DNA from: Enhydrobacter aerosaccus
GTDB taxonomy: Bacteria; Pseudomonadota; Alphaproteobacteria; Reyranellales; Reyranellaceae
Direction: 5' to 3'
Length of the DNA stretch: 39,942 nt
Assembly (NCBI GenBank): GCA_903839865.1
Contig: CAIMEE010000513.1
Location: 1-39,942 of the forward strand
The translations under genes were made by a program, and so were the position numbers. The notes under the pieces were generated by a model, which was given only the letters and a program-made list of their open reading frames with translations, was not told where the DNA came from and searched no databases. Shown piece by piece: positions 3,379 to 16,904 of this stretch; the stretch's first letter is position 1, and each line of letters begins with the position of its first letter.

Positions 3379-3543
3379 ATGGTTGGCCCGTCCAGAACCC
3401 CGCCGGACACGGAGGACCGCGATGCAAGGCTCGCTGCCGCATTGCGCGAAAACCTCAAACGGCGCAAGGCGAAGACGCGCACGCTGAATGAAAAAGACAA
3501 ATCGTCCACCCCCGAATCACTCGAGGAAAAGACCGGCGGTTGA
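3379..3543 (+). CDS. Small charged hypothetical protein upstream of dcd
   Basis: A 54-residue reading frame with a highly charged core (DRDARLAAALRENLKRRKAK) followed by a polar tail. It ends 34 bases before dcd and points the same way. Short proteins with an RLAxALRxNLxRRKAQ-like core are, from memory, common beside housekeeping genes in alphaproteobacteria, which supports it being real; I cannot confirm this here. The ATG at 3379 has only GGGA directly in front of it, so the start is not certain. The predicted form is a basic helix without a membrane segment. No function is proposed. Confidence 0.6.
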   Translation: MVGPSRTPPDTEDRDARLAAALRENLKRRKAKTRTLNEKDKSSTPESLEEKTGG

Positions 3544-3577
3544 GCCGGCCCCTCCAACCGTCTAGAAGCCCCTCGCA

Positions 3578-4132
3578 ATGAGCATTCTTTCCGACCGCTG
3601 GATCCGCCGCATGGCGCAGGAGAAGGGCATGATCGAGCCCTTCGTCGATGGCCAGAAGCGCGAAGGCGTCATCAGCTACGGCCTCTCGTCCTACGGCTAC
3701 GACGCGCGCGTCGGCACCGACTTCAAGATCTTCACCAACGTGAACTCCGCCGTGGTCGATCCCAAGGCGTTCGACCAGAACAGCTTCGTCGACCGCAACA
3801 CCGACGTCTGCATCATCCCGCCCAACTCCTTCGCGCTCGCGCGCACGGTCGAGTACTTCCGAATCCCGCGCGACGTGCTGGTGATCTGCGTCGGCAAGTC
3901 GACCTACGCGCGCTGCGGCATCATCGTGAACGTGACCCCGCTCGAGCCCGAGTGGGAGGGCCACGTGACGCTGGAGTTCTCCAACACCACGCCGCTGCCC
4001 GCCAAGATCTACGCCAACGAGGGCGCGTGCCAGTTCCTGTTCCTGCAGGGCAACGAGCCCTGCGAGACCTCCTATCTCGACAAGTCCGGCAAGTACCAGG
4101 GCCAGCGCGGCGTCACCCTCCCCAAAATCTGA
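3578..4132 (+). CDS. dcd: dCTP deaminase
   Basis: Converts dCTP to dUTP and ammonia, feeding dUMP for thymidylate synthesis; it acts as a cytoplasmic homotrimer. It has 184 residues, close to the usual length. Signature segments are [14 protein letters not shown] (33-46), [20 protein letters not shown] (105-124) with the nucleotide-binding Ser-Arg residues, and [11 protein letters not shown] with the likely catalytic Glu133. The C-terminal [13 protein letters not shown] tail is the strand that closes over the nucleotide. The DUF/dUTPase-like fold is clear from these motifs. The stop lies 18 bases before murA, so the two are probably co-transcribed. Confidence 0.97.
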
Positions 4133-4150
4133 AACCAGCGGAGATAATAA

Positions 4151-5434
4151 ATGGATCGAATCCGTATCCGCGGCGGCAAGCAGCTCAACGGCACCATCCG
4201 AATCTCCGGCTCCAAGAACGCCTCGCTGCCGCTGATGGCGACGGCGCTGCTCAGCGACCAGAAGTTCACGCTGCACAACGTGCCGCGCCTGGCCGACATC
4301 ACGACCATGATGGTGCTGCTGCAGCAGCACGGCGTCGAGATCAATTCGGCGGCGGGAGAGAACGGCCATAGCCACGGCACGACGCTAACCTTGCAGACCA
4401 GGAAGATCACCTCGACCACGGCGCCCTACGACATCGTGCGCAAGATGCGCGCCTCGGTGCTGGTGCTGGGCCCGTTGCTGGCGCGCGAGGGCCAGGCCAA
4501 GGTCTCGCTGCCGGGCGGCTGCGCGATCGGCGCGCGCCCGGTCGATCTGCACATCGCTGGTCTCAAGGCGATGGGAGCAGAAATCGACATCGACGGCGGC
4601 TACATGATCGCCAAGGCGCCCAAGGGCTTGAAGGGCGCGCGCTACACTTTCCCCAAGGTCTCCGTCGGCGCCACCGAGAACCTGATGATGGCGGCGGCGC
4701 TCGCCAAGGGCACGACCGTGCTGGCCAACGCCGCGCGCGAGCCTGAGATCATCGATCTCGCCCAGTGCCTCACCTCGATGGGTGTCACCGTCGAGGGCAT
4801 CGGCACCGAGACGCTCACCATCCACGGTGTCGATCGCCTGAAGGAAGCCACGCACTCGGTCATCCCCGACCGCATCGAGATCGGCACCTACGCGATGGCC
4901 GTGGCGATGACTGCGGGCGACGTCGAGCTGGTCGGCGGCCGCCTCGAACTGCTGGAGGCGGCGGCGCAGACGCTGCGCTCGGCCGGCGTCTCGCTCGAGC
5001 CGACGGAAAAGGGCTTCCGCGTGCGCCGCGCCAACGGCCAGCTGCACGGCGTCGACGTGATGACCGAGCCCTATCCCGGTTTCCCGACCGACCTGCAGGC
5101 GCAGATGATGGCGCTGATGACCCGCGCGGACGGCGCGTCGATGATCACCGAGACGATCTTCGAGAGCCGCTTCATGCACGTGCCCGAGCTCGCGCGCATG
5201 GGCGCCAATGTCGTGGTCCATGGCGAGTCCGCCCTGGTGCGCGGCGTGTCGAAGCTGCGTGGCGCCGAAGTGATGGCGACCGATCTCCGCGCCTCGGTCT
5301 CGCTCGCGATCGCGGGCCTCGCCGCCGAAGGCGACACGACCCTGCACCGCGTCTACCACCTCGACCGCGGCTACGAGCGCCTTGAGGAAAAGCTCGCGGC
5401 CTGCGGCGCCGACATCGAGCGGCTGAAGGGTTGA
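4151..5434 (+). CDS. murA: UDP-N-acetylglucosamine 1-carboxyvinyltransferase
   Basis: First committed enzyme of peptidoglycan synthesis: it transfers enolpyruvate from PEP to UDP-GlcNAc in the cytoplasm. The length of 427 residues is normal. The substrate-binding pair Lys22-Asn23 sits in SGSKNASLP, and the PEP-reactive, fosfomycin-sensitive Cys124 in [11 protein letters not shown]. The late [16 protein letters not shown] and [11 protein letters not shown] blocks are family hallmarks. It starts at ATG after GGAGATAATAA and follows dcd. Its TGA stop abuts the stop codon of the convergent arsA (joint TGATCA), so the two genes have no intergenic spacer. Confidence 0.98.
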
Positions 5435-7207
5435 TCAGGCAGCCAGGCGTTCGAGCGCAGCGATGCCGATCGGGGGGGCCGCCAGTCTCGGCAACAGGTA
5501 AGCAGCTTTCGCCAGCCCGTCGTGCACGCGGGCGATCTGGATCAATTCTCCAGACAGGCGACGCAGCAACAGCGGGTCGCGCGTGCCGCTTCCAACCAGG
5601 CATTTGTTGATCACCCAGGCGAATGGTTCGATGCCCGCGCGCCGCAGATCCTCCTGCAGGGCTGCCGCCTGGGACACGGGCGTGGTTTCCGCCAATGTTA
5701 CGAGGATGACGCGCGTATAAGCGGAATCCTGCAGCCGCATCAGCGGCGTGATCAGTCTGCCGCCTGCGGGTTGGGTAGGGAGGTTATGAACCATCTGCCG
5801 GTGATAGGCGCCGGTTGCATCCATCAGCAGCAGTGAATGGCCGGTCGGCGCTGTATCCAGCACCACGAAGGCACTGCGCGCTTCGCTGACGATCCGCGAG
5901 AAGGCATGGAATACCGCCACCTCTTCCGTGCAGGGTGACTCCAGGTCTTCGCGCAGCAGGGCCTTGCCGGCTTCGTCCAGTCTGCGCCCACCAGCTTCCA
6001 TCGCCTTGGCGACATAGCGGGCTGTCTCCGCCTTAGGGTCAATGCGATCGACCAGCAGGCCGGGCAGTTCGCCGTCGACCGTCATGGCAAGATGCGCCGC
6101 CGGATCGGTGGTGCTGAGATGCACCGAGTGGCCGCGCTGCACCAGGCCGATGGCGATGGCAGACGCGATGGTAGTCTTGCCCACTCCGCCCTTGCCCATC
6201 ACCATGATCAGGCCGCGGCCATTCTGGGCGAGACGATCGATCAGCTCGCTCAGTTCCGGGTCGCGGTTGGTTGTGACCGCAGCGGGACTGGGCTGAAGGG
6301 CACCCTCTGGCTTTGGCGGCTGCTGGAGCGAGAGCAGAGATCGCAGCGCGTCAAGACCAACCATGTCGTAGGGTCGCAGCGCGATCTCGTCGCGCGACAG
6401 GCTCCGCAATGCCGTCGGCATCTCGGAGAGTGCCGACTGGCCTTCCTGCTCGACCGAAACAGCCACTGCATCGTTTGCCGCATTTGCCCTGAAGACCCCG
6501 TTTATCACAAGGCGCTGGTTCGACAGTCCCATGGCGCGGAGCTCGATCGACGTGCGATCCGCCTCCCGAAGCGCGCCGCGCTCGGGTCGCGTCACCAGTA
6601 CGATCGTGGTCAGCTTGTCGTTCGCCAGCGTCTCCATGGCCTGGCGAAAGCGCTCCTCCTGCATCTTCAGTCCCGAATGTGGTCCCAGGCAGGAAGCGCC
6701 GCGGTCGTTGCCGGCGAGAAATCCGGTCCAGGCTTTCGGCAGGCTGAGCAGGCGCAGCGTGTGGCCCGTGGGCGCCGTATCGAAGACGACATGGTCGAAG
6801 CCGCTCGCCTCACCGGCCAGCAGGCCGGTGAACTCGTCGAAGGCGGCGATCTCCGTGGTGCAGGCACCGGAGAGCTGCTCGCGCACGGTTTGCCGCGTCT
6901 TCTCATCGGTCCCTTGCTCGAGTTGTGCCAGGACCCGGCCGCGATAGGCCTCGGACGCGGCCGTTGGATCGATGTTGAGCACGGACAGTCGGGGCACATC
7001 GGGCACGGCGACGGGCTGGTTGCTGAGCTTGACCCCAAGCATCTCGTCCAGATTCGAGGCCGGATCCGTGCTGACCAGCAGAACGGTCTTTCCGGCATCG
7101 GCTATATGCAACGACGCGGCGCATGCGATCGACGTCTTGCCGACGCCGCCCTTGCCGGTGAAGAACAGGAAGCGGCTCGGCGACTTGCCAAGGAAGTTCA
7201 ACGTCAT
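5435..7207 (-). CDS. arsA: Arsenite/antimonite pump-driving ATPase ArsA (two-domain)
   Basis: Soluble ATPase of 590 residues with two homologous halves, as in plasmid R773 ArsA (583 residues), which powers ArsB-mediated arsenite extrusion. N half: P-loop GKGGVGKTS (about 18-26), DTAPTGHT signature (143-150). C half: P-loop GKGGVGKTT (338-346), DTAPTGHS (451-458). The three metalloid-binding cysteines of ArsA are all matched: Cys116 (SGACTTEIAAF), Cys173 (GASCLGP) and Cys426 (ESPCTEEVAVF). The ATG at 7207 was chosen because homology begins there; the frame stays open upstream only by chance. It lies 80 bases after the TauE/SafE gene on the same strand and may share its transcript. No arsB or arsD is visible, which makes its membrane partner an open question. 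Get3-like roles are less likely given the cysteines. Confidence 0.93.
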   Translation of the reverse strand: MTLNFLGKSPSRFLFFTGKGGVGKTSIACAASLHIADAGKTVLLVSTDPASNLDEMLGVKLSNQPVAVPDVPRLSVLNIDPTAASEAYRGRVLAQLEQGTDEKTRQTVREQLSGACTTEIAAFDEFTGLLAGEASGFDHVVFDTAPTGHTLRLLSLPKAWTGFLAGNDRGASCLGPHSGLKMQEERFRQAMETLANDKLTTIVLVTRPERGALREADRTSIELRAMGLSNQRLVINGVFRANAANDAVAVSVEQEGQSALSEMPTALRSLSRDEIALRPYDMVGLDALRSLLSLQQPPKPEGALQPSPAAVTTNRDPELSELIDRLAQNGRGLIMVMGKGGVGKTTIASAIAIGLVQRGHSVHLSTTDPAAHLAMTVDGELPGLLVDRIDPKAETARYVAKAMEAGGRRLDEAGKALLREDLESPCTEEVAVFHAFSRIVSEARSAFVVLDTAPTGHSLLLMDATGAYHRQMVHNLPTQPAGGRLITPLMRLQDSAYTRVILVTLAETTPVSQAAALQEDLRRAGIEPFAWVINKCLVGSGTRDPLLLRRLSGELIQIARVHDGLAKAAYLLPRLAAPPIGIAALERLAA

Positions 7208-7287
7208 CCCAAAACGATACCCAAGAAGTGCTACCGCAGACTTGATGTAGATCAGTGCCGCGCCTGCCGATGGGGCAAGAGAATGGC

Positions 7288-8085
7288 TTAGGCCATCATG
7301 GTCAGGACGCCGCGCACACAGATGTAAAGGCCGGCCGAAATCACGAAGCCGGCGAAGACCCGGGTCATCAGCACGCGGCGATCGGCGAGCAGGGCATTGA
7401 GGTGCGTGCCGCCCAGAGCGCCCGCGGCACCCCCCACGATCAGCAGCCCGGCCGTTGGCCAATCGATCAGGCCCGACCAGGCATAGCTCGATGCGGACGA
7501 AAGGCCGAAAGCTGCGACCGCGATCAGGGAGGCGCCCGTTGCCTCCTTGAGATCCATGTGCGCCGCCAGCATCAGCGCCGGCACGATCAGGAAGCCGCCG
7601 CCGATGCCGAAGAAGCCCGACATCAGGCCAACGCCTGCACCGAGTAGCGCCAGGCGGGGCAGCAGGTGCGGAGCGCTCTCTCGCGTCAGCCACGGCGAAG
7701 GGCGGGCCGCCTGCGGCTTCGGTCTGAGCATCAGCAGTCCGACCACGATCATCAGCAGGCCGAACAGCGCGAGCAGTTGGCGTCCGTCGATTGCCTTGCC
7801 GGCTGCCGCGCCGGCAAAGGCGCCGCCGATGCCCGCGAGGCTGAAGACGACGGCACAGGGCCACCGGATTTTGGTCCGGCGGGCGTGCAGGACGAGGCTT
7901 GCAAGGGCGTTGACGGCGACCGCGAAAGCCGCCGTGCCGATGGCGACGTGGGGCGAGGCGGTGCCCACGGCGTAGACGAGCAGAGGAACGGCAAGGATGG
8001 AGCCGCCGCCGCCGATCAGACCGAGCACGAGCCCGATCACGCCGCCGGACCCGAGTGCCGCCGCGGCGGGGAGCAGCCCGCCCAT
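7288..8085 (-). CDS. Sulfite exporter TauE/SafE family permease
   Basis: Integral membrane protein of 265 residues with about eight hydrophobic segments in two repeats, each opening with a Gly-rich hairpin: GLVLGLIGGGGSILAVPLLV near the N-terminus and LMSGFFGIGGGFLIVPALML in the middle. This is the TauE/SafE (DUF81) pattern of anion exporters for sulfite, sulfoacetate or related sulfur compounds. The ATG at 8085 overlaps the stop of the rhodanese gene by one base (TGATG), which fixes the start and indicates translational coupling. In the BigR operons of Xylella and Agrobacterium, a member of this family exports sulfite made by persulfide oxidation; the same role is inferred here. Confidence 0.92.
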   Translation of the reverse strand: MGGLLPAAAALGSGGVIGLVLGLIGGGGSILAVPLLVYAVGTASPHVAIGTAAFAVAVNALASLVLHARRTKIRWPCAVVFSLAGIGGAFAGAAAGKAIDGRQLLALFGLLMIVVGLLMLRPKPQAARPSPWLTRESAPHLLPRLALLGAGVGLMSGFFGIGGGFLIVPALMLAAHMDLKEATGASLIAVAAFGLSSASSYAWSGLIDWPTAGLLIVGGAAGALGGTHLNALLADRRVLMTRVFAGFVISAGLYICVRGVLTMMA

Positions 8086-8615
8086 CACACGATCGCGGGC
8101 TTCGGCGCGGTCCGCCGGTTCCATGGCATCAAGCCAAGGAGCCTCGCCATGCCGCACCAGCCGCTGATTCCGGCGAACATCAGCCCGGCGCCGACGAAGG
8201 CGCTCAGTCCGTAGAACGCCGGAGAGACCCAGGTGCCGAGGGCCACGCCCAGCAGCACGAGGCCGCCTGCGGTGATCTGCACCTGCCGCATGACCTCGAT
8301 CGGCTGGCGCGCGTCGATGGCAACCGGCAGGCCCGCCTTCTTCCAGGCGTTGATGCCGCCTTCGAGGATGTAGGCCTGGCAATCCGCCGCGCCGGCGAGG
8401 CGCTGGGCGTTGGCGGCCGTGCGGGCGCCGGAGCGGCAGTGAAAGATCACCGCTGGCGCGCCGGTCTTGAGCCCCTCGAGCCTGCTCACAGGCTGGTTGC
8501 GCGCGCCGGGTACGCGCTCGCGCAGATGCTCGTCGGGCTCGCGAATGTCGACCAGCAACGCGCCGCCGTCGATCAGGCGCTTGGCCTCCATCGGATCGAT
8601 CGTTTTCAGGGTCAT
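8085..8615 (-). CDS. Rhodanese domain fused to DUF2892 membrane domain
   Basis: A 176-residue protein. Residues 1-95 form a rhodanese domain with the active-site loop FHCRSGART (Cys60 carries the persulfide) and the CH2A-like LLVDIREPDEH motif. Residues about 108-165 form a hydrophobic hairpin of DUF2892 type (LVLLGVALGTWVSPAFYGLS, LMFAGISGWCGMARLLGL). It should transfer sulfane sulfur at the cytoplasmic face of the inner membrane, passing it to or from glutathione persulfide in the sulfide detoxification route. The start ATG follows a strong GGAGGA. It sits 13 bases after the ArsR-type regulator and overlaps the TauE gene by one base, so it is part of a tight operon. Confidence 0.93.
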   Translation of the reverse strand: MTLKTIDPMEAKRLIDGGALLVDIREPDEHLRERVPGARNQPVSRLEGLKTGAPAVIFHCRSGARTAANAQRLAGAADCQAYILEGGINAWKKAGLPVAIDARQPIEVMRQVQITAGGLVLLGVALGTWVSPAFYGLSAFVGAGLMFAGISGWCGMARLLGLMPWNRRTAPKPAIV

Positions 8616-8628
8616 GATGTCCTCCGTG

Positions 8629-8946
8629 TCAGGTGCAATAGAGTCGATGCAGGGTGGCGAAAAGCGTTTCGACCCTGGGATCGGCGATGCGGTACCAGAT
8701 CGATTGCGCCTCGCGTCGAAAAGCGACGATTCCTTCCTCGCGCATGCGCGCGAGATGCTGGGACAGCGCCGACTGCGACAGGCCGACTTCCTCGGCGAGC
8801 GTTCCGACGGTGGCTTCCCCCAGCTCCACGAGGGTGCAGAGGATGAGGAGTCGCCGGTCGTTGGCCAGCGCGCGCAGCAGGTCCGCGACCTGGCCGGCTT
8901 TGGCCTGCAGGGCGCGGGGATCGAGGCGAGGGGGCTTAGTTTTCAT
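8629..8946 (-). CDS. bigR: ArsR-family repressor of BigR/SqrR type (two-cysteine persulfide sensor)
   Basis: Winged-helix repressor of 105 residues. The recognition helix region reads GLSQSALSQHLARMREEGIV, followed by a wing (RREAQSIWYRI). Cys37 in LILCTLVELGE and Cys104 at the end (HRLYCT) occupy the positions of the two cysteines that form a disulfide or polysulfide bridge in BigR, YgaV and SqrR. There is no CxC-type arsenite site in the DNA-binding helix. Function inferred from the family: it represses the divergent sulfide-detoxification genes until reactive sulfur bridges the cysteines. The start ATG at 8946 faces the divergent metallo-hydrolase gene across 76 AT-rich bases. The bigR name is a homology assignment, not proof of the ligand. 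Confidence 0.87.
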   Translation of the reverse strand: MKTKPPRLDPRALQAKAGQVADLLRALANDRRLLILCTLVELGEATVGTLAEEVGLSQSALSQHLARMREEGIVAFRREAQSIWYRIADPRVETLFATLHRLYCT

Positions 8947-9022
8947 GGTGATCTTTATTTAAGGTATTGCTAATTTAGTAAGTGCTAATATATAGGTCAA
9001 GACCCAACCCGAGGATTTATCG
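8947..9022. promoter_or_regulatory. Overlapping divergent promoters and probable BigR-type operator
   Basis: AT-rich stretch inside very GC-rich DNA, between divergent starts. Leftward: TTGACC (complement of 8995-9000), 17-base spacer, TAAATT (complement of 8972-8977). Rightward: TTGCTA (8967-8972), 16-base spacer, TATATA (8989-8994). The two -10/-35 sets interleave. CTAATTTAG (8970-8978) is a dyad, and TGCTAAT occurs twice (from 8968 and 8983). A repressor bound here would silence both sides. The operator assignment is inferred; the promoter boxes are read directly. Confidence 0.6.
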
Positions 9023-9892
9023 ATGACCGGCAGACCCACGATCGACGCGTTTTTCGACGAAGCCACCTTTACCGTGACCTATCTCGTGAGCGATCCGGCC
9101 TCGCGGCGCGCCGTGATCGTCGATCCCGTGCTCGATTACGATCACCGCTCCGGCAAGGCCTCGACCGTGTCTGCGGACAAGGTGCTGGCGAAAGTGCGGG
9201 AGCGCGGCCTCCAGATCGACTGGGTGCTCGAGACCCATGCCCATGCCGACCACCTGACGGCGGCGCCGCACATCAAGGCCGCCACGGGCGCCAAGATCGT
9301 GATCGGCGAGCATATTCGCGACGTGCAGAAGATCTTCGCCCCGTTCTTCAATGCGCCCGACGTAAGCTGCGACGGCGGCGAGTTCGACCGCCTGGTGCGC
9401 GACGGCGAGACGTTGCCGCTGGGCGGCCTCGAGATCGAGGTCATGCATGTTCCCGGGCACACCCCCGCCGACGTCGCCTATCGCATCGGCGACGCCGTCT
9501 TCGTGGGCGACACGCTGTTCATGCCGGACTACGGCACGGCGCGCGCCGACTTTCCGGGTGGGGATGTCGTCCAGCTATACCGCTCGATCAGGCGGCTCCT
9601 CGCGCTGCCGGGCGAGACGCGGCTCTTCATGTGTCATGACTACAAGGCGCCGGGGAGGACGGTCTACGCATGGGAGACGACAGTTGCGGAGGAGCGCGAG
9701 AAGAACGTCCATGTGCACGACGGCGTCTCTGAAGAAAGCTTCGTTGCCCTGCGCCGAAACCGCGACGCCACGCTCCCGGCGCCGGTGCTGCTGTTGCCCT
9801 CGGTGCAGGTCAACATCCGTGCCGGCCGTTTGCCGCCACCCGATCCCAACGGCGTCAGCTACCTGCGTATTCCCGTGAGGTGGGCGCCGTAA
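9023..9892 (+). CDS. MBL-fold persulfide dioxygenase-like hydrolase (ETHE1/Blh type)
   Basis: Metallo-beta-lactamase-fold protein of 289 residues. Metal site: THAHADHL (His72, His74, Asp76, His77), PGHTPAD (His146), VGDTLF (Asp163) and MCHDY (His205). ETHE1-type enzymes use two His and one Asp of this set to bind a single Fe and oxidise glutathione persulfide to sulfite. The NTVTYLVSDP-like opening (FTVTYLVSDPASRRAVIVDP) and MPDYGTARADFPGG are typical of the Blh group found in bigR operons. The C-terminal 70 residues extend past the core, as in that group. The start ATG has GAGG upstream. It faces bigR, and with the rhodanese and TauE exporter it completes a persulfide-to-sulfite route. A glyoxalase II role is less likely. 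Confidence 0.9.
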   Translation: MTGRPTIDAFFDEATFTVTYLVSDPASRRAVIVDPVLDYDHRSGKASTVSADKVLAKVRERGLQIDWVLETHAHADHLTAAPHIKAATGAKIVIGEHIRDVQKIFAPFFNAPDVSCDGGEFDRLVRDGETLPLGGLEIEVMHVPGHTPADVAYRIGDAVFVGDTLFMPDYGTARADFPGGDVVQLYRSIRRLLALPGETRLFMCHDYKAPGRTVYAWETTVAEEREKNVHVHDGVSEESFVALRRNRDATLPAPVLLLPSVQVNIRAGRLPPPDPNGVSYLRIPVRWAP

Positions 9893-9894
9893 AA

Positions 9895-9911
9895 TAGGGA
9901 AGGGTTCCCTA
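9895..9911. other. Short perfect hairpin after the MBL hydrolase gene
   Basis: TAGGGAA and TTCCCTA are separated by GGG, giving a perfect 7-base-pair stem directly after the stop codon. There is no T-run, so it is a weak candidate for a terminator or RNA end-stabilising element between the hydrolase and mddA-like genes. Confidence 0.4.
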
Positions 9912-9943
9912 TACCGCAGTGCCAGCGAGCCTGAGAGAAAGCG

Positions 9944-9960
9944 CCCGTACCACATACGGG
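9944..9960 (+). promoter_or_regulatory. Hairpin covering the ribosome-binding site of the mddA-like gene
   Basis: CCCGTA (9944-9949), loop CCACA, TACGGG (9955-9960): a perfect 6-base-pair stem. The 3' arm contains the GGG of the GGGAGA Shine-Dalgarno (9958-9963) that serves the ATG at 9969. Folding would partly hide the ribosome-binding site. A regulatory role is inferred, not shown. Confidence 0.4.
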
Positions 9961-9968
9961 AGACTCAT

Positions 9969-10700
9969 ATGGGTCGCATTCTGGCACTTCTCTACGGATT
10001 CGCATCGTACGCGTTTTTCTTCGTTACCTTCCTGTACGCCATGGGCTTCGTCGAAGGCCTCGTGGTGCCCAAGACGATCGACTCGGGCCCGGTGGTATCG
10101 GCGCGCGAGGCGGTGATCGTGAACCTGATCCTGCTGGCGGTCTTCGCCGTCCAGCACAGCGTCATGGCGCGGCCGGCCTTCAAGCGCTGGTGGACGCAGT
10201 TCGTGCCGAAGTCGGTCGAGCGCAGCACCTACGTGCTGCTGTCCACGGCGGCCCTGGCGTTGCTGTGCTGGCAGTGGCGGCCGATGCCGGCGGTTCTTTG
10301 GAGCGTCACCGATCCCTACCTCGCGCAGGTACTGATCGGCCTGTCGCTGCTGGGCTTCGTGATCGCGCTGACCAGCACGTACCTGATCAACCATTTCGAA
10401 TTATTCGGCCTGCAGCAGGTCGTGCACAACCTGACCGGCCGCGAGGCGCCGCAGCCCGTGTTCCGTACGCCGTTGTTCTACAAGGTGGTGCGGCATCCGC
10501 TCTATCTCGGCTTCATCATCGCCTTCTGGGTGACGCCGTCGATGACGGTGGGCCATCTGCTGTTTGCCGCCGCGACGACCGCCTACATCGTGATCGGCGC
10601 CTTGCTCGAGGAGCGCGACCTCGTGGACCTCTTCGGCGACGACTATCGCCGCTACCGCGAAAAGGTCTCGATGCTCATTCCGTGGCGCAAGTCGGCGTGA
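9969..10700 (+). CDS. mddA: Methanethiol S-methyltransferase-like membrane protein (MddA/NnrU/ICMT superfamily)
   Basis: A 243-residue membrane protein with about five hydrophobic segments. It matches my memory of MddA, which makes dimethylsulfide from methanethiol and S-adenosylmethionine: AVQHSVMARPAFKR (60-73), ERSTYVLLSTAAL (84-96), HFELFGLQQV (142-151), VRHPLYLGFIIAFWVTP (174-190) and the C-terminal EERDLVDLFGDDYRRYR (214-230). The last two are the SAM-binding features of the isoprenylcysteine methyltransferase superfamily. It follows the persulfide dioxygenase-like gene by 76 bases and points the same way, so a role in detoxifying volatile thiols in the same sulfur programme is plausible. 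The NnrU label is the main alternative, as the families overlap. A hairpin precedes the start. Confidence 0.8.
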   Translation: MGRILALLYGFASYAFFFVTFLYAMGFVEGLVVPKTIDSGPVVSAREAVIVNLILLAVFAVQHSVMARPAFKRWWTQFVPKSVERSTYVLLSTAALALLCWQWRPMPAVLWSVTDPYLAQVLIGLSLLGFVIALTSTYLINHFELFGLQQVVHNLTGREAPQPVFRTPLFYKVVRHPLYLGFIIAFWVTPSMTVGHLLFAAATTAYIVIGALLEERDLVDLFGDDYRRYREKVSMLIPWRKSA

Positions 10701-10707
10701 GCTCATG

Positions 10708-10879
10708 CACCTCCCCCGTCTTCGGGGGAGGTGCCAGCGTCTTACGCTGACGGAGGGGGCGAGCCACACGGCAAACCTCACCGATATTCGATCATGATGC
10801 GGAACTGCAGGCGACGCGGTGGGGCTTTCCCCCTCCGTCGCGGATTGCCGCGCCACCTCCCCCGAAGACGGGGGAGGGG
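10708..10879. repeat. Palindromic, MITE-like repeat element with 50-base inverted arms
   Basis: The 10701-10932 intergenic stretch is dominated by two inverted copies of one block. The left arm (10708-10759) has a perfect 11-bp hairpin (CACCTCCCCCG, loop TCTT, and its complement), then a small CAGCG/CGCTG hairpin and CGGAGGGGG. The right arm (about 10829-10879) is its reverse complement with changes in the middle hairpin. About 70 unrelated bases separate the arms. No reading frame looks real inside. This is the layout of a non-autonomous palindromic repeat; the left hairpin may also end the mddA-like transcript. Confidence 0.7.
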
Positions 10880-10932
10880 AAGGGCTCTATAATCGGGGCT
10901 CCTTTGGTGAAGTAATTCGAGGAACGCCGATC

Positions 10933-11850
10933 ATGAGCACGATCACGGTCACGCCGCTGGGCTTCGCCGCCGGCGCACAGGTCACGGGCATCGATCTTTC
11001 GAAGCCGCTGAGCGAGCTGCAGCAGCGCCAGATCAACAAGGCGTGGCTGGAGCACATCGTGCTGGTCTTCCCGGGCCAGGAGCTGACGCCCGCCCAGCAG
11101 ATCGCCTTCACCGGCAGTTTCGGCACGCTCGACCAGCACGGCTCGCAGGCGCCGACGACCTTGCATCCGGAGCATCGCGAGATCCTGGTGCTCTCCAACA
11201 AGGTGGTGAACGGCAAGAAGTCGGGCACCTACAATTCGGGCCGCAACTGGCACACCGACTTGAGCTACACCACGCGGCCGGCGAAGGGCGCGGTCATTCA
11301 CTGCAAGGAAAAGCCGCCGGTCGGCGGCGACACCATGTGGGCGAACCTCTATCTCGCGCTGGAGACGCTCTCGCCCACCATCCGCAAGCTTCTGGACGGC
11401 CTCGAAGCCGTGCACGACGTCACGCTGGTGCAGGGCATCGAGCTGCGCGCGCCGGAAGTCGTGGCGGAGATGAAGAAGCGCACTCCGCCGGTCGTCCATC
11501 CCGTGGTGCGCACCCATCCCGAGACCGGGCGCAAGTCGCTGCTGGTCAACCAGCGCATCCGCCGCTTCGTCGGCATGTCGGACGAGGAGAGCCAGTCGCT
11601 GCTCGCGATGCTTAACACGCATGCGACTTCTCCGGAGTTCGTCTATCGCCACCGCTGGAGTCTCGGCGACGTGGTGATGTGGGACAATCGCTGCTCCTGC
11701 CACGTGGCGCTGGGCGACTTCGACCAGACCAAGCCGCGCGTCATGTTCCGCTGCTCGCTCGAAGGCGAGGTCGAGAGCGGCCGCCTTACGAACGATATTG
11801 GCGGCACGGATCGTCAGACGATGTTGCAGGCGGTGGCCGCGGTATCGTAG
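10933..11850 (+). CDS. TauD/TfdA-family Fe(II)/2-oxoglutarate dioxygenase
   Basis: A 305-residue enzyme that couples 2-oxoglutarate decarboxylation to hydroxylation of an unknown substrate. The iron triad is visible: His107 and Asp109 in NWHTDLSY, and His257 in CSCHVALGDF. Arg269 or Arg273 in KPRVMFRCSLEG binds the 2-oxoglutarate carboxylate. The GDTMWANLYLALETLS segment is typical of the family. The ATG at 10933 is preceded by GAGGAACG; the frame is open upstream only through the palindromic repeat, so that part was not counted. TauD proper acts on taurine, which would fit the sulfur genes nearby, but 2,4-D-type or other substrates are equally possible. It stands alone between two repeat elements. 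Confidence 0.92.
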   Translation: MSTITVTPLGFAAGAQVTGIDLSKPLSELQQRQINKAWLEHIVLVFPGQELTPAQQIAFTGSFGTLDQHGSQAPTTLHPEHREILVLSNKVVNGKKSGTYNSGRNWHTDLSYTTRPAKGAVIHCKEKPPVGGDTMWANLYLALETLSPTIRKLLDGLEAVHDVTLVQGIELRAPEVVAEMKKRTPPVVHPVVRTHPETGRKSLLVNQRIRRFVGMSDEESQSLLAMLNTHATSPEFVYRHRWSLGDVVMWDNRCSCHVALGDFDQTKPRVMFRCSLEGEVESGRLTNDIGGTDRQTMLQAVAAVS

Positions 11851-11861
11851 CAACGGTGAAA

Positions 11862-11963
11862 CCCTCACCCTGAGGAGCGCGCAGCGCGTCTCGAAGGGTG
11901 GGCAACAAACAAGGTGCTCGTTCTCACCCTTCGAGACGCGGCCTTTCAGGCCGCTGGGTGAGG
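11862..11963. repeat. Second palindromic repeat family, full copy
   Basis: Two inverted arms, about 11863-11902 and 11923-11963. GCGTCTCGAAGGGTG (11886-11900) is the exact complement of CACCCTTCGAGACGC (11925-11939), and both outer ends read CCTCACCC/GGGTGAGG. The inner 20 bases (from 11903) end in GTGCTCGTTC, which also occurs at the related copy near 25385. It fills the gap between the TauD-like gene and the Bug gene. The type resembles the CCTGAGGAGC...CTCGAAGG repeats common in Bradyrhizobium-like genomes (from memory). Confidence 0.75.
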
Positions 11964-11992
11964 TGGCGGGTGAATGAAGGGGAGAAGACGAC

Positions 11993-15978: not shown

Positions 15979-16461
15979 ATGTCGCCAAAGGTGTCGGGTC
16001 CGCGGCGCATCGTCGATATCGTGCTGGACGAGCAGTCGGTCGCCCGGCGTTCGCCCGAGGTCGAGCACGAGCGTGCGGTGGCGCTATTCGATCTCCTGGA
16101 GGAGAACGACTTCGCGCTGCATGGCGCACCCGGTCCCTACAAGCTCCATCTCGGCGTCTTCGAGCAGCGCCTGGTGTTCAGCGTGCACGACGAGAACGAC
16201 CGCAAGCTGCGCGACGTCATCCTGTCACTGACGCCGTTCCGCAAGATCGTGAAGGACTACTTCATGGTCTGCGAGAGCTACTACGCCGCGATCAAGCGAC
16301 TGAGCAACACGCAGATCGAGGCGCTCGACATGGGCCGGCGCGGTTTGCACAACGAGGGCTCCGAACTGCTGCGCGAACGGCTCGAGGGCAAGATCGAGGT
16401 CGACCACGACACGGCGCGGCGGCTGTTCACGCTCATCTGCGCGCTTCACATCAAGGCATGA
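15979..16461 (+). CDS. UPF0262 family protein
   Basis: A 160-residue protein of the UPF0262 family, found almost only in alphaproteobacteria and usually directly after hisD. Visible signatures are [11 protein letters not shown] at the N-terminus, [40 protein letters not shown] and [19 protein letters not shown]. It is soluble and helical. Function unknown. It starts eight bases after hisD and overlaps the next gene by four bases (ATGA), so it is translationally coupled in the his-phosphatase-infA run. Confidence 0.93.
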
Positions 16462-16904
16462 GCAATTCTTTGCCCGGCAGCGTCTTATTCGCCTGCAGCC
16501 AGAACTCGGTGCGCTCGCCGATGGCCGAGGCGATGGCCAAGCGGCTCTATGGCCAGTCGAGCTACATCGATTCGGTGGGCGTGCGGGCGACCGAGGTCGA
16601 CGGCTTTGCCGTCGCGGTCCTCGACGAGATCGACGTCGACGTCCACAGGCACCATGCCAAGACCTTCGCCGACATCGACCCCGCGTCGTTCGACCTGATC
16701 GTGAGCCTGTCGCCGGAGGCGCATCACCAGGCGCTGGAATTCACGCGCGGCACGGCGGTCGAGGTCGAGTACTGGCCGGTGCCCGACCCCAGCGCCGTCG
16801 AGGGCTCGCGCGAGGCCCGGCTCGATGCCTATCGCCGCACGCGCGATCTCATCCTGGCCCGCCTGAAGGCGCGATTCGGTGCACCGGGGGCGCCAGTTGA
16901 CTAA
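16458..16904 (+). CDS. Low-molecular-weight protein tyrosine phosphatase / arsenate reductase-like protein
   Basis: A 148-residue protein of the LMW phosphatase superfamily. The P-loop CSQNSVRS (Cys13 to Arg19, CX5R) is near the N-terminus, and the general-acid Asp is in [10 protein letters not shown]. The superfamily includes tyrosine phosphatases and thioredoxin-linked arsenate reductases, and this sequence does not show the extra Cys pair that would mark an ArsC clearly. In alphaproteobacteria a member routinely sits between UPF0262 and infA, so a housekeeping role is more likely than arsenic resistance despite the arsA in this window. It overlaps UPF0262 by four bases. Confidence 0.9.

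Follow-up and report, generated by a model that had tools for sequence, protein, structure and literature searches.

The bigR operons of Xylella fastidiosa and Agrobacterium are described as combining a two-cysteine repressor, an ETHE1-type dioxygenase, a sulfur transferase function and a TauE-related transporter (PMC5823870), and the BigR-controlled yeeE-yedE-pdo2 operon of Acinetobacter baumannii as bringing together a persulfide-sensing BigR and a separate pdo2 gene (PMC7315123). The window, i.e. the entire 39,942-nucleotide stretch of Enhydrobacter aerosaccus DNA that was analysed, contains a block of genes sharing these features. It differs from the Xylella and Agrobacterium operons in that the sulfur transferase is a separate rhodanese protein with a YgaP-like transmembrane domain and no DUF442 fusion, that the dioxygenase gene sdo diverges from bigR, and that arsA and mddA lie at the flanks; it differs from the A. 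baumannii operon in having TauE and the rhodanese-transmembrane protein instead of YeeE/YedE. On a plasmid of Caballeronia (L237), TauE and YeeE genes are annotated together. The two flanking genes have counterparts of their own. MddA belongs with the methanethiol S-methyltransferases, and the position of its gene behind sdo differs from that in other genomes of the genus. ArsA belongs to the same two-domain ATPase family as the ArsA of ars operons such as that of Reyranella aquatilis (L054, with acr3; 67–70% identity within the genus), but its gene falls in another clade, and no match to ACR3, ArsC (thioredoxin or glutaredoxin type) or ArsH was found in the window. The block probably places three modules of different history side by side: a sulfide core, a murA-linked mddA and an appended orphan arsA.

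Gene content and the sulfide core

All six genes of the block that had been called in the initial annotation were recovered in the same places and orientations, and its reading of a BigR-type sulfide core proved correct. The left border is formed by murA (4151..5434, plus strand; TIGR01072, 569 bits), which converges on arsA such that the stop codons of the two genes abut. The arsA gene (5435..7207, minus strand; start ATG at 7207) encodes a two-domain arsenical pump ATPase of 590 residues and is separated by 80 bp from tauE (7288..8085, minus strand), a tauE/safE-type permease gene (PF01925, E-value 4.8e-48) whose ATG shares one base with the stop codon of the rhodanese gene (8085..8615, minus strand). 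In the rhodanese protein, a domain with a CRSGART loop starting at residue 60 is fused to a YgaP-like transmembrane domain (PF11127, which we take to be the family formerly named DUF2892).

The repressor gene (8629..8946, minus strand), identified by profile match and alignment, encodes an ArsR-family winged helix-turn-helix protein with a conserved cysteine pair about 66–67 residues apart, as expected of BigR/SqrR proteins. Both cysteines, Cys37 and Cys104, are invariant in the six aligned rows, the window's own included. The persulfide-sensing pair of A. baumannii BigR is given as C34/C100 (PMC7315123), and that of YgaV is reported as C31/C98. Since the protein scores 84 bits against a cut-off of 155 for the NCBIfam BigR equivalog, it is classified here as BigR/SqrR-like rather than as BigR itself.

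The divergent sdo gene (9023..9892, plus strand), identified by profile and motifs, encodes a stand-alone ETHE1-like persulfide dioxygenase. The protein resembles structures 9g8t, 4ysk and ETHE1 (4chl) and carries the metal-ligand motifs of the metallo-β-lactamase fold (HxHxDH from residue 72, GH at 145–146, GD at 162–163 and CHD from 204), to which the iron-binding residues are presumably to be assigned. It is not a Blh protein, in which DUF442 and ETHE1 are joined, as it covers only positions 141–420 of the 423 in the Blh model NF040641, with the first part missing, and scores 380 bits versus 625. A gap of 76 bp separates sdo from mddA (9969..10700, plus strand), whose product passes the model for H2S/methanethiol S-methyltransferases (NF045656, 364 bits against a cut-off of 270).

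By analogy with its homologues, the repressor would bind the shared bigR-sdo promoter and would be released from DNA upon persulfidation of Cys37 and Cys104. The rhodanese and the dioxygenase would then convert glutathione persulfide to sulfite, and TauE would export sulfite or thiosulfate.

Conservation of the core and the murA-mddA locus

The core recurs in the genus and its flanking genes do not recur with it. A dioxygenase gene of at least 62% identity is present in 26 of 60 other genus genomes (27 of 61 with the window's own), and bigR and the rhodanese gene accompany it at 22 of these 26 loci, within flanks of about 1.5 kb. In flanks of the same size, some of which were cut short by contig ends, mddA was found beside sdo at none of the 26 other sdo loci and arsA at none of the 27 other tauE loci. 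A conserved six-gene island was rejected, as no other genus locus examined has it. The loci covered thus show what the initial annotation had itself named as a refutation, a neighbourhood in relatives that lacks arsA and mddA. In three relatives (G005, G065 and G073), arsA is absent and the end of tauE lies no more than about 20 bp from murA.

The mddA gene has a different neighbour. It follows murA directly in G001, at a distance of 93 bp (DNA identity 90% on the murA side and 81% in mddA), and lies 2.3 kb past murA, with other genes between, in G028 (95% and 93%); neither genome has the sulfide block. Homology with G028 resumes at position 9888 of the window. G001 shares the palindrome TAGGGA-N5-TCCCTA that lies upstream of mddA (9895..9911), and the copy in G028 differs from it by a single mismatch. 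The palindrome is native to the murA-mddA locus. Among the six genus genomes that hold both genes, only the window's own has mddA behind sdo. The core sits between murA and mddA. The latter gene, with the palindrome that precedes it, probably belongs to the murA neighbourhood from the outset, and its product would methylate H2S or methanethiol.

An assembly or binning artefact, in which the murA contig would have been fused to DNA from another source, has an almost negligible probability. The draft assembly comprises 622 contigs, and its contamination is put at 7.46%; however, GC content is 0.62–0.71 over the window and 0.64–0.67 over the block, tauE-murA junctions exist in the three relatives mentioned above, and one and the same G028 contig matches the dcd-murA side and the mddA-tauD side at 93–95%. 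Additionally, the nearest dioxygenase rows, by identity as well as by tree path, are genus rows, in a tree that does not place the window's row firmly, as the row is grouped there with L010, an outgroup on a long branch.

Cis-elements and the question of one regulon

The intergenic region between bigR and sdo contains conserved operator-like dyads, CTAATTTAG and TTAG-N6-CTAATA (8970..8990). The latter is kept in 21 of 25 genus bigR-sdo intergenic regions, the window's included, in an alignment from which the sdo loci L129 and L140, both among the 26, were omitted, and it supplies a testable candidate operator for the genus. TTAGN6CTAA occurs once in the window, and a scan for the operator dyad upstream of arsA and of mddA gave no match.

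These positions bear on the proposal that one regulator controls sulfide, methanethiol and metalloid stress. In its fullest form, persulfide oxidation, the methylation of H2S and methanethiol and the export of metalloids would all belong to a single BigR-type regulon made up of two divergent operons, and transcription would read through into arsA and mddA at their far ends. The flanking genes are co-directional with those before them across the 80- and 76-bp gaps, and a search of the two gaps revealed no terminator-like site on the sense strand. Nor did arsA or mddA show a sigma-70-like promoter upstream, the single promoter match fitting bigR; read-through from the BigR promoter may therefore occur, and confidence in the modular view is slightly lowered by the promoter result. 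MddA uses H2S as well as methanethiol, and mddA is reported to be induced by H2S (PMC12904073), so its function fits the proposal. Loose linkage of arsA with sdo in a few other lineages also speaks against the modular view. Against this stand the genus loci examined, where the core recurs without arsA or mddA, the two genomes in which mddA follows murA without sulfide genes, and the elements upstream of arsA and mddA, which differ from the operator dyad. The single regulon is accordingly unlikely, and the one-regulator claim is left unsupported. The gene set looks assembled piecemeal, not placed under one switch, and we infer that a common regulon is absent. The case illustrates that genes may look co-regulated merely because they are neighbours, an impression not borne out by related genomes, where each module probably has its own history.

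The modular view leaves arsA with a candidate element of its own. The 80-bp tauE-arsA gap contains a dyad, CTGAT-CTAC-ATCAA (7242..7255, minus strand), which agrees at 9 of 10 positions with the FNR/FixK consensus, taken here to be TTGAT-N4-ATCAA. It is the sole such match in the window, and no sigma-70-like promoter was recognised beside it; arsA might be transcribed from a putative FNR/FixK-type promoter here. The sister arsA in L003 is also preceded by a 9-of-10 box, in upstream DNA that is otherwise different. Within the ArsA clade to which the window belongs, however, boxes agreeing at 9 or more of the 10 positions are present in only 4 of 15 rows. Across 96 ArsA loci (window and L003 included), boxes were more frequent at loci without acr3, arsC or arsH than at loci with them when up to three mismatches were allowed (29/62 versus 9/34, p 0.04), and likewise at two (17/62 versus 4/34, p 0.06) and one (7/62 versus 1/34, p 0.15), all p-values being one-sided and ignoring kinship. 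The label "without" is imperfect, as judged by eye from L066, where arsA adjoins GAPDH-, MFS- and ArsR-like genes. In an open count of dyads at ArsA loci, GC-rich dyads were equally frequent, and TTGAT/TTGAC dyads excelled only in comparison with random stretches.

An arsA gene with no recognised permease

ArsA of the window scores 709 bits against the TIGR04291 cut-off of 650, keeps both P-loops, and has Cys116, Cys173 and Cys426 aligned with the arsenic-site cysteines of the solved ArsA; it is thus classified as an ArsA arsenical pump ATPase. No match to ACR3 (TIGR00832, E-value of at most 1e-30) was found in its own draft genome, and the sole PF02040 match (L083; 44 bits, versus 457 for ArsB) was rejected as ArsB on NCBIfam comparison. 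Given the fragmentation and contamination of the draft, the missing acr3 is not proof of absence. A hidden ars operon was likewise rejected on the gene content of the window, which besides lacking the ACR3, ArsC and ArsH matches named above has only a low-molecular-weight-phosphatase match (26%) at 16458–16886, over 9 kb away; the ORFs of the 80 ArsA loci kept for comparison contained no ArsD motif. The gene is probably best described as an orphan arsenite-type ATPase gene appended between tauE and murA.

It is quite improbable that arsA has been co-opted to power a sulfur-related permease (TauE in the window, and YeeE/YedE or TauE in other lineages) for the export of thioarsenic or thiolated metalloid species, or that it provides arsenite defence without a dedicated permease. 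The intact P-loops and cysteines in a genome without a recognised ACR3 or ArsB are consistent with such a role, and ArsA lies within 10 kb of SDO/TauE at 3 of 80 ArsA loci (80 kept of 389), in genomes with no ACR3 match, and 6–7 kb from SDO on two of seven plasmid regions examined. However, a survey of 385 genomes of the class found 11 with this ArsA, eight of them also with SDO, and adjacency only in the window's genome; a general arsA-sdo linkage across the class was rejected. Other genes intervene between arsA and sdo in Caballeronia and Sphingomonas, an arsC-like match lies 0.3 kb upstream of the Caulobacteraceae arsA, and the sister arsA has no TauE or SDO within 10 kb; in G085, the sister arsA, the tauE-sdo block and murA are on three separate contigs. 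We know of no coupling between ArsA and TauE, and among the papers listed in literature searches, judged by title and abstract opening, none concerns a BigR operon carrying arsA.

A broader version of this idea, to be rated as highly improbable, holds that some ArsA lineages left the ars operon, work without a dedicated arsenite permease and settled in persulfide-detoxification islands (the window, Sphingomonas, and Caballeronia/Paraburkholderia plasmids), where they power or assist a sulfur-family permease or handle thiolated arsenic, and that in the window's genome arsA is also induced at low oxygen through the FNR/FixK-type box. Its odds are lowered by the sdo-linked arsA genes of other lineages, which lack such a box. 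The arsA genes without a permease are nevertheless flagged as worth experiment. Clustering of all ORFs of the 80 ArsA loci was swamped by shadow ORFs.

Gene identities and the conserved sulfide core

The source assembly, in which the window is contig C513, is a 5.5-Mb draft in 622 contigs with a contamination of 7.46%. The six genes of the initial annotation were all found at their reported places. With corrected starts, arsA occupies 5435–7207 and tauE 7288–8085, both on the reverse strand, and the tauE ATG shares one base with the rhodanese stop codon. The intergenic gaps measure 13 bp (bigR-rhodanese), 80 bp (tauE-arsA), 76 bp (bigR-sdo) and 76 bp (sdo-mddA). ArsA passes model TIGR04291 (709 bits against a cut-off of 650), retains both P-loops, and contains three cysteines (Cys116, Cys173 and Cys426) that line up with those forming the arsenite site in the ArsA structure 1f48. 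MddA passes NF045656. The regulator, described initially as a two-cysteine BigR/SqrR-like repressor, does carry the pair (Cys37 and Cys104), but scores 84 bits, under the BigR equivalog cut-off of 155 bits, and is therefore classed as BigR/SqrR-like. The ETHE1/Blh-like hydrolase matches the Blh model over positions 141–420 only and is thus a stand-alone persulfide dioxygenase (SDO).

Some SDO match (E≤0.001) is present in all 61 genomes of the genus, taken here as Reyranella, and 27 of the 61, the window's included, have one of at least 62% identity. At the 26 other sdo loci, bigR, the rhodanese-TM gene and sdo occur together in 22. The exceptions are genomes G011 (BigR match absent), G005 (neither BigR nor rhodanese match, and sdo broken by a stop), and two loci at contig edges, G075 (BigR-like at 49%) and G034. 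At 25 of these 26 loci tauE is matched within a few kb of sdo on one contig (as a fragment in G018), with G034 the one lacking it. Alignment of 25 bigR-sdo intergenic regions (the window's plus those from 24 of the 26 other loci) revealed the dyad TTAG-N6-CTAATA, with N6 free, in 21 rows and GCTAAT-N-TAG in 16; TTAG-N6-CTAA occurs once in the whole window, at 8975. No printed operator sequence for comparison with this dyad was found in the accessible literature. PMC7315123 and PMC9774250 describe a BigR/SqrR chemistry in which persulfide bridges the cysteine pair and DNA is freed, and the sulfide/persulfide oxidation route presumed for the core follows PMC5823870. The core is a conserved, ordinary sulfide-oxidation cluster with a persulfide-type repressor.

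mddA and the murA site

The mddA gene is probably a native neighbour of murA. Among the eight genomes in which the murA/mddA locus was compared, G028 is the nearest, matching window positions 3400–5430 at 95% and 9888–11846 at 93%. There, about 2.3 kb between murA and mddA hold a phospholipase/patatin-like ORF (22 bits, under its cut-off) and another ORF, and tauE, arsA and SDO matches are weak only, genome-wide. In G001, mddA starts 93 bp past murA, and searches of this genome for the block genes tauE, arsA and sdo gave no close match either. MddA (E≤1e-20) is found in 21 of the 61 genus genomes and together with SDO (at least 62%) in six, the two being adjacent in the window's only; no MddA match was found at the 26 other sdo loci (L115–L140; flanks of about 1.5 kb, some cut by contig ends). 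This absence, and the position of mddA after murA without the block in G028 and G001, argue against mddA as the regulon partner first proposed. The juxtaposition of sdo and mddA is nevertheless chemically sensible, even without an operon origin, because PMC12904073 gives H2S as well as methanethiol as MddA substrates and reports induction of mddA by H2S and/or methanethiol.

The palindrome TAGGGA-N5-TCCCTA begins two bases past the sdo stop codon and is also located upstream of mddA in G001 (exact) and G028 (one mismatch); it is absent, within 2 mismatches, from the 17 further MddA loci read in the genus. Either an operator or a terminator of murA is a possible role.

The murA 3' end (window 5434/5435) is a variable cargo site in the genus, followed by the tauE-sdo block in G065 and G073 (reduced in G005), arsA plus the block in the window, the patatin-like and other ORF in G028, mddA directly in G001 and another sequence in G085. 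Since the block also adjoins murA in three relatives, it may be old at this site and have been lost in G001 and G028. Downstream of mddA, window 10710–10877 contains a perfect inverted repeat of 24 nt whose arms stand 120 nt apart, and these ~170 bp match dispersed places in G001, G005, G028 and G073 at 69–82%, as in a putative MITE/REP-like family. A second dispersed repeat (11863–11966, ~100 bp, 79–92% alike) has many places in G001, G008 and G028 and contains a perfect 16-nt inverted repeat (arms 11885–11900 and 11925–11940).

Distribution and linkage of arsA

The arsA gene lies outside the conserved block and is probably an orphan appended to it. No ArsA match was found at the 27 other genus tauE loci (L145–L171, a set including a few distant tauE copies; flanks of about 1.5 kb, some cut by contig ends), which argues against its proposed role as a regulon partner. 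In three genomes that lack arsA at this place (G005, G065 and G073), the ends of tauE and murA are at most about 20 bp apart. Full-length ArsA is present in 11 of 37 genus genomes searched; of the 10 besides the window's, 7 have acr3 on the arsA contig at a distance of up to 5 kb. An acr3 match (E≤1e-30) occurs in 48 of 61 genus genomes; the window's draft genome has none at this threshold. Within the window, ACR3, thioredoxin/glutaredoxin-type ArsC and ArsH gave no match, and 16458–16886 (+), more than 9 kb from arsA, is a weak 26% match to the low-molecular-weight-phosphatase ArsC of locus L016. The lone PF02040 match of the genome, a permease at L083:1126–2787 (contig C254), was rejected as ArsB (44 bits against a cut-off of 457) and is more MamN- or DASS-like; the two flanking ORFs resemble, by eye, TRAP solute-binding proteins.

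The assignment of the genus to Reyranella follows from the nearest named arsA record, which is from a Reyranella massiliensis MAG (L003, 87%), and from several same-genus genomes whose ArsA is identical to named Reyranella records. The L003 genome, G085, has arsA on contig C36, the sdo block on C37 and murA on C3; G085 and G063 are probably one genome, since their acr3 place is identical. A quick ArsA tree (92 rows) grouped the window and L003 with 13 further rows in a clade (SH-aLRT 97) that is largely alphaproteobacterial and separate from the 21-row Reyranella clade containing the acr3-linked copies.

Among the best 80 of 389 ArsA loci, SDO/TauE lies within 10 kb of ArsA in three. Two are from Sphingomonas, where SDO, TauE and ArsA share a strand with a MauG/MbnH-like gene that scores under its cut-offs; the third is from Caulobacteraceae, with an arsC-like match 0.3 kb upstream of ArsA. 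ACR3 has no match in these three genomes and was matched in 7 of the 16 genomes of that search. Across the class, ArsA (E≤1e-150) is found in 11 of 385 genomes and SDO (E≤1e-75) in 159. Eight have both: adjacent in the window's, on different contigs in six, and in G189 with no SDO in the 18-kb stretch around ArsA. Window-type ArsA occurs in just 3 of 298 genomes of the family of L008, an sdo-linked arsA locus. Twelve plasmid records have ArsA at 60–80% identity, and seven such regions were read. SDO is 6–7 kb from ArsA in Caballeronia grimmiae and, judged from matches alone in an unannotated record, in Paraburkholderia caribensis; SDO is absent within 8–10 kb in the other five, including PGU19, with its best SDO place ~32 kb off. 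The C. grimmiae plasmid p2 region (L237) is annotated with TauE, two YeeE/YedE, ArsR, an MBL hydrolase (SDO), a phosphatase/FAD-oxidoreductase fusion and cytochrome b genes. Its arsA adjoins a Tn3 transposase, and this sulfide island is possibly mobile.

Sites upstream of arsA and mddA

A scan of 5200–11000, with 0.6 sigma-70-like sites expected, found one, which is oriented towards bigR (9000–8972); neither arsA nor mddA is preceded by such a site. Of two terminator-like sites (2.6 expected), neither is on the sense strand of the tauE-arsA or sdo-mddA gap. The initial annotation suggested that one BigR-type regulator may control sulfide, methanethiol and metalloid stress; such a shared regulon would be possible only via read-through. 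The locus is probably a standard sulfide-oxidation cluster between murA and its native neighbour mddA, with an orphan arsA appended and the modules separate, a reading held less firmly because no promoter was found before arsA or mddA.

An FNR/FixK-like box, CTGATCTACATCAA, lies inside the tauE-arsA gap (7242–7255), matches 9 of 10 consensus positions, and is the sole match of at least 9/10 in the 39,942 bases. L003 has GTGATCCATATCAA ahead of arsA in a short shared block, the remaining upstream DNA differing from the window. About 1.3% of random 220-base stretches from ArsA loci score at least 9. Against a role for the box, only 4 of 15 rows in the window's own ArsA clade reach this score (window, L003, L006 and L029). 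Among 96 ArsA loci, the dyad TTGAT-N4-ATCAA (up to 2 mismatches, −115 to −20) precedes 19 of 62 arsA genes without acr3/arsC/arsH versus 4 of 34 with them (random stretches, 3.2%), an excess that is suggestive only, as the ArsA rows are related. Some ArsA lineages could instead belong to persulfide islands without a dedicated arsenite permease, switched here by FNR/FixK; this is very improbable, the more so because the box is missing in the other sdo-linked arsA genes (L004, L008, L010, L237 and L238, scores of 6–7). The cargo at the murA site of G028 opens with a perfect TTGAT-N4-ATCAA (10/10; L218:6245–6258), before the patatin-like ORF.
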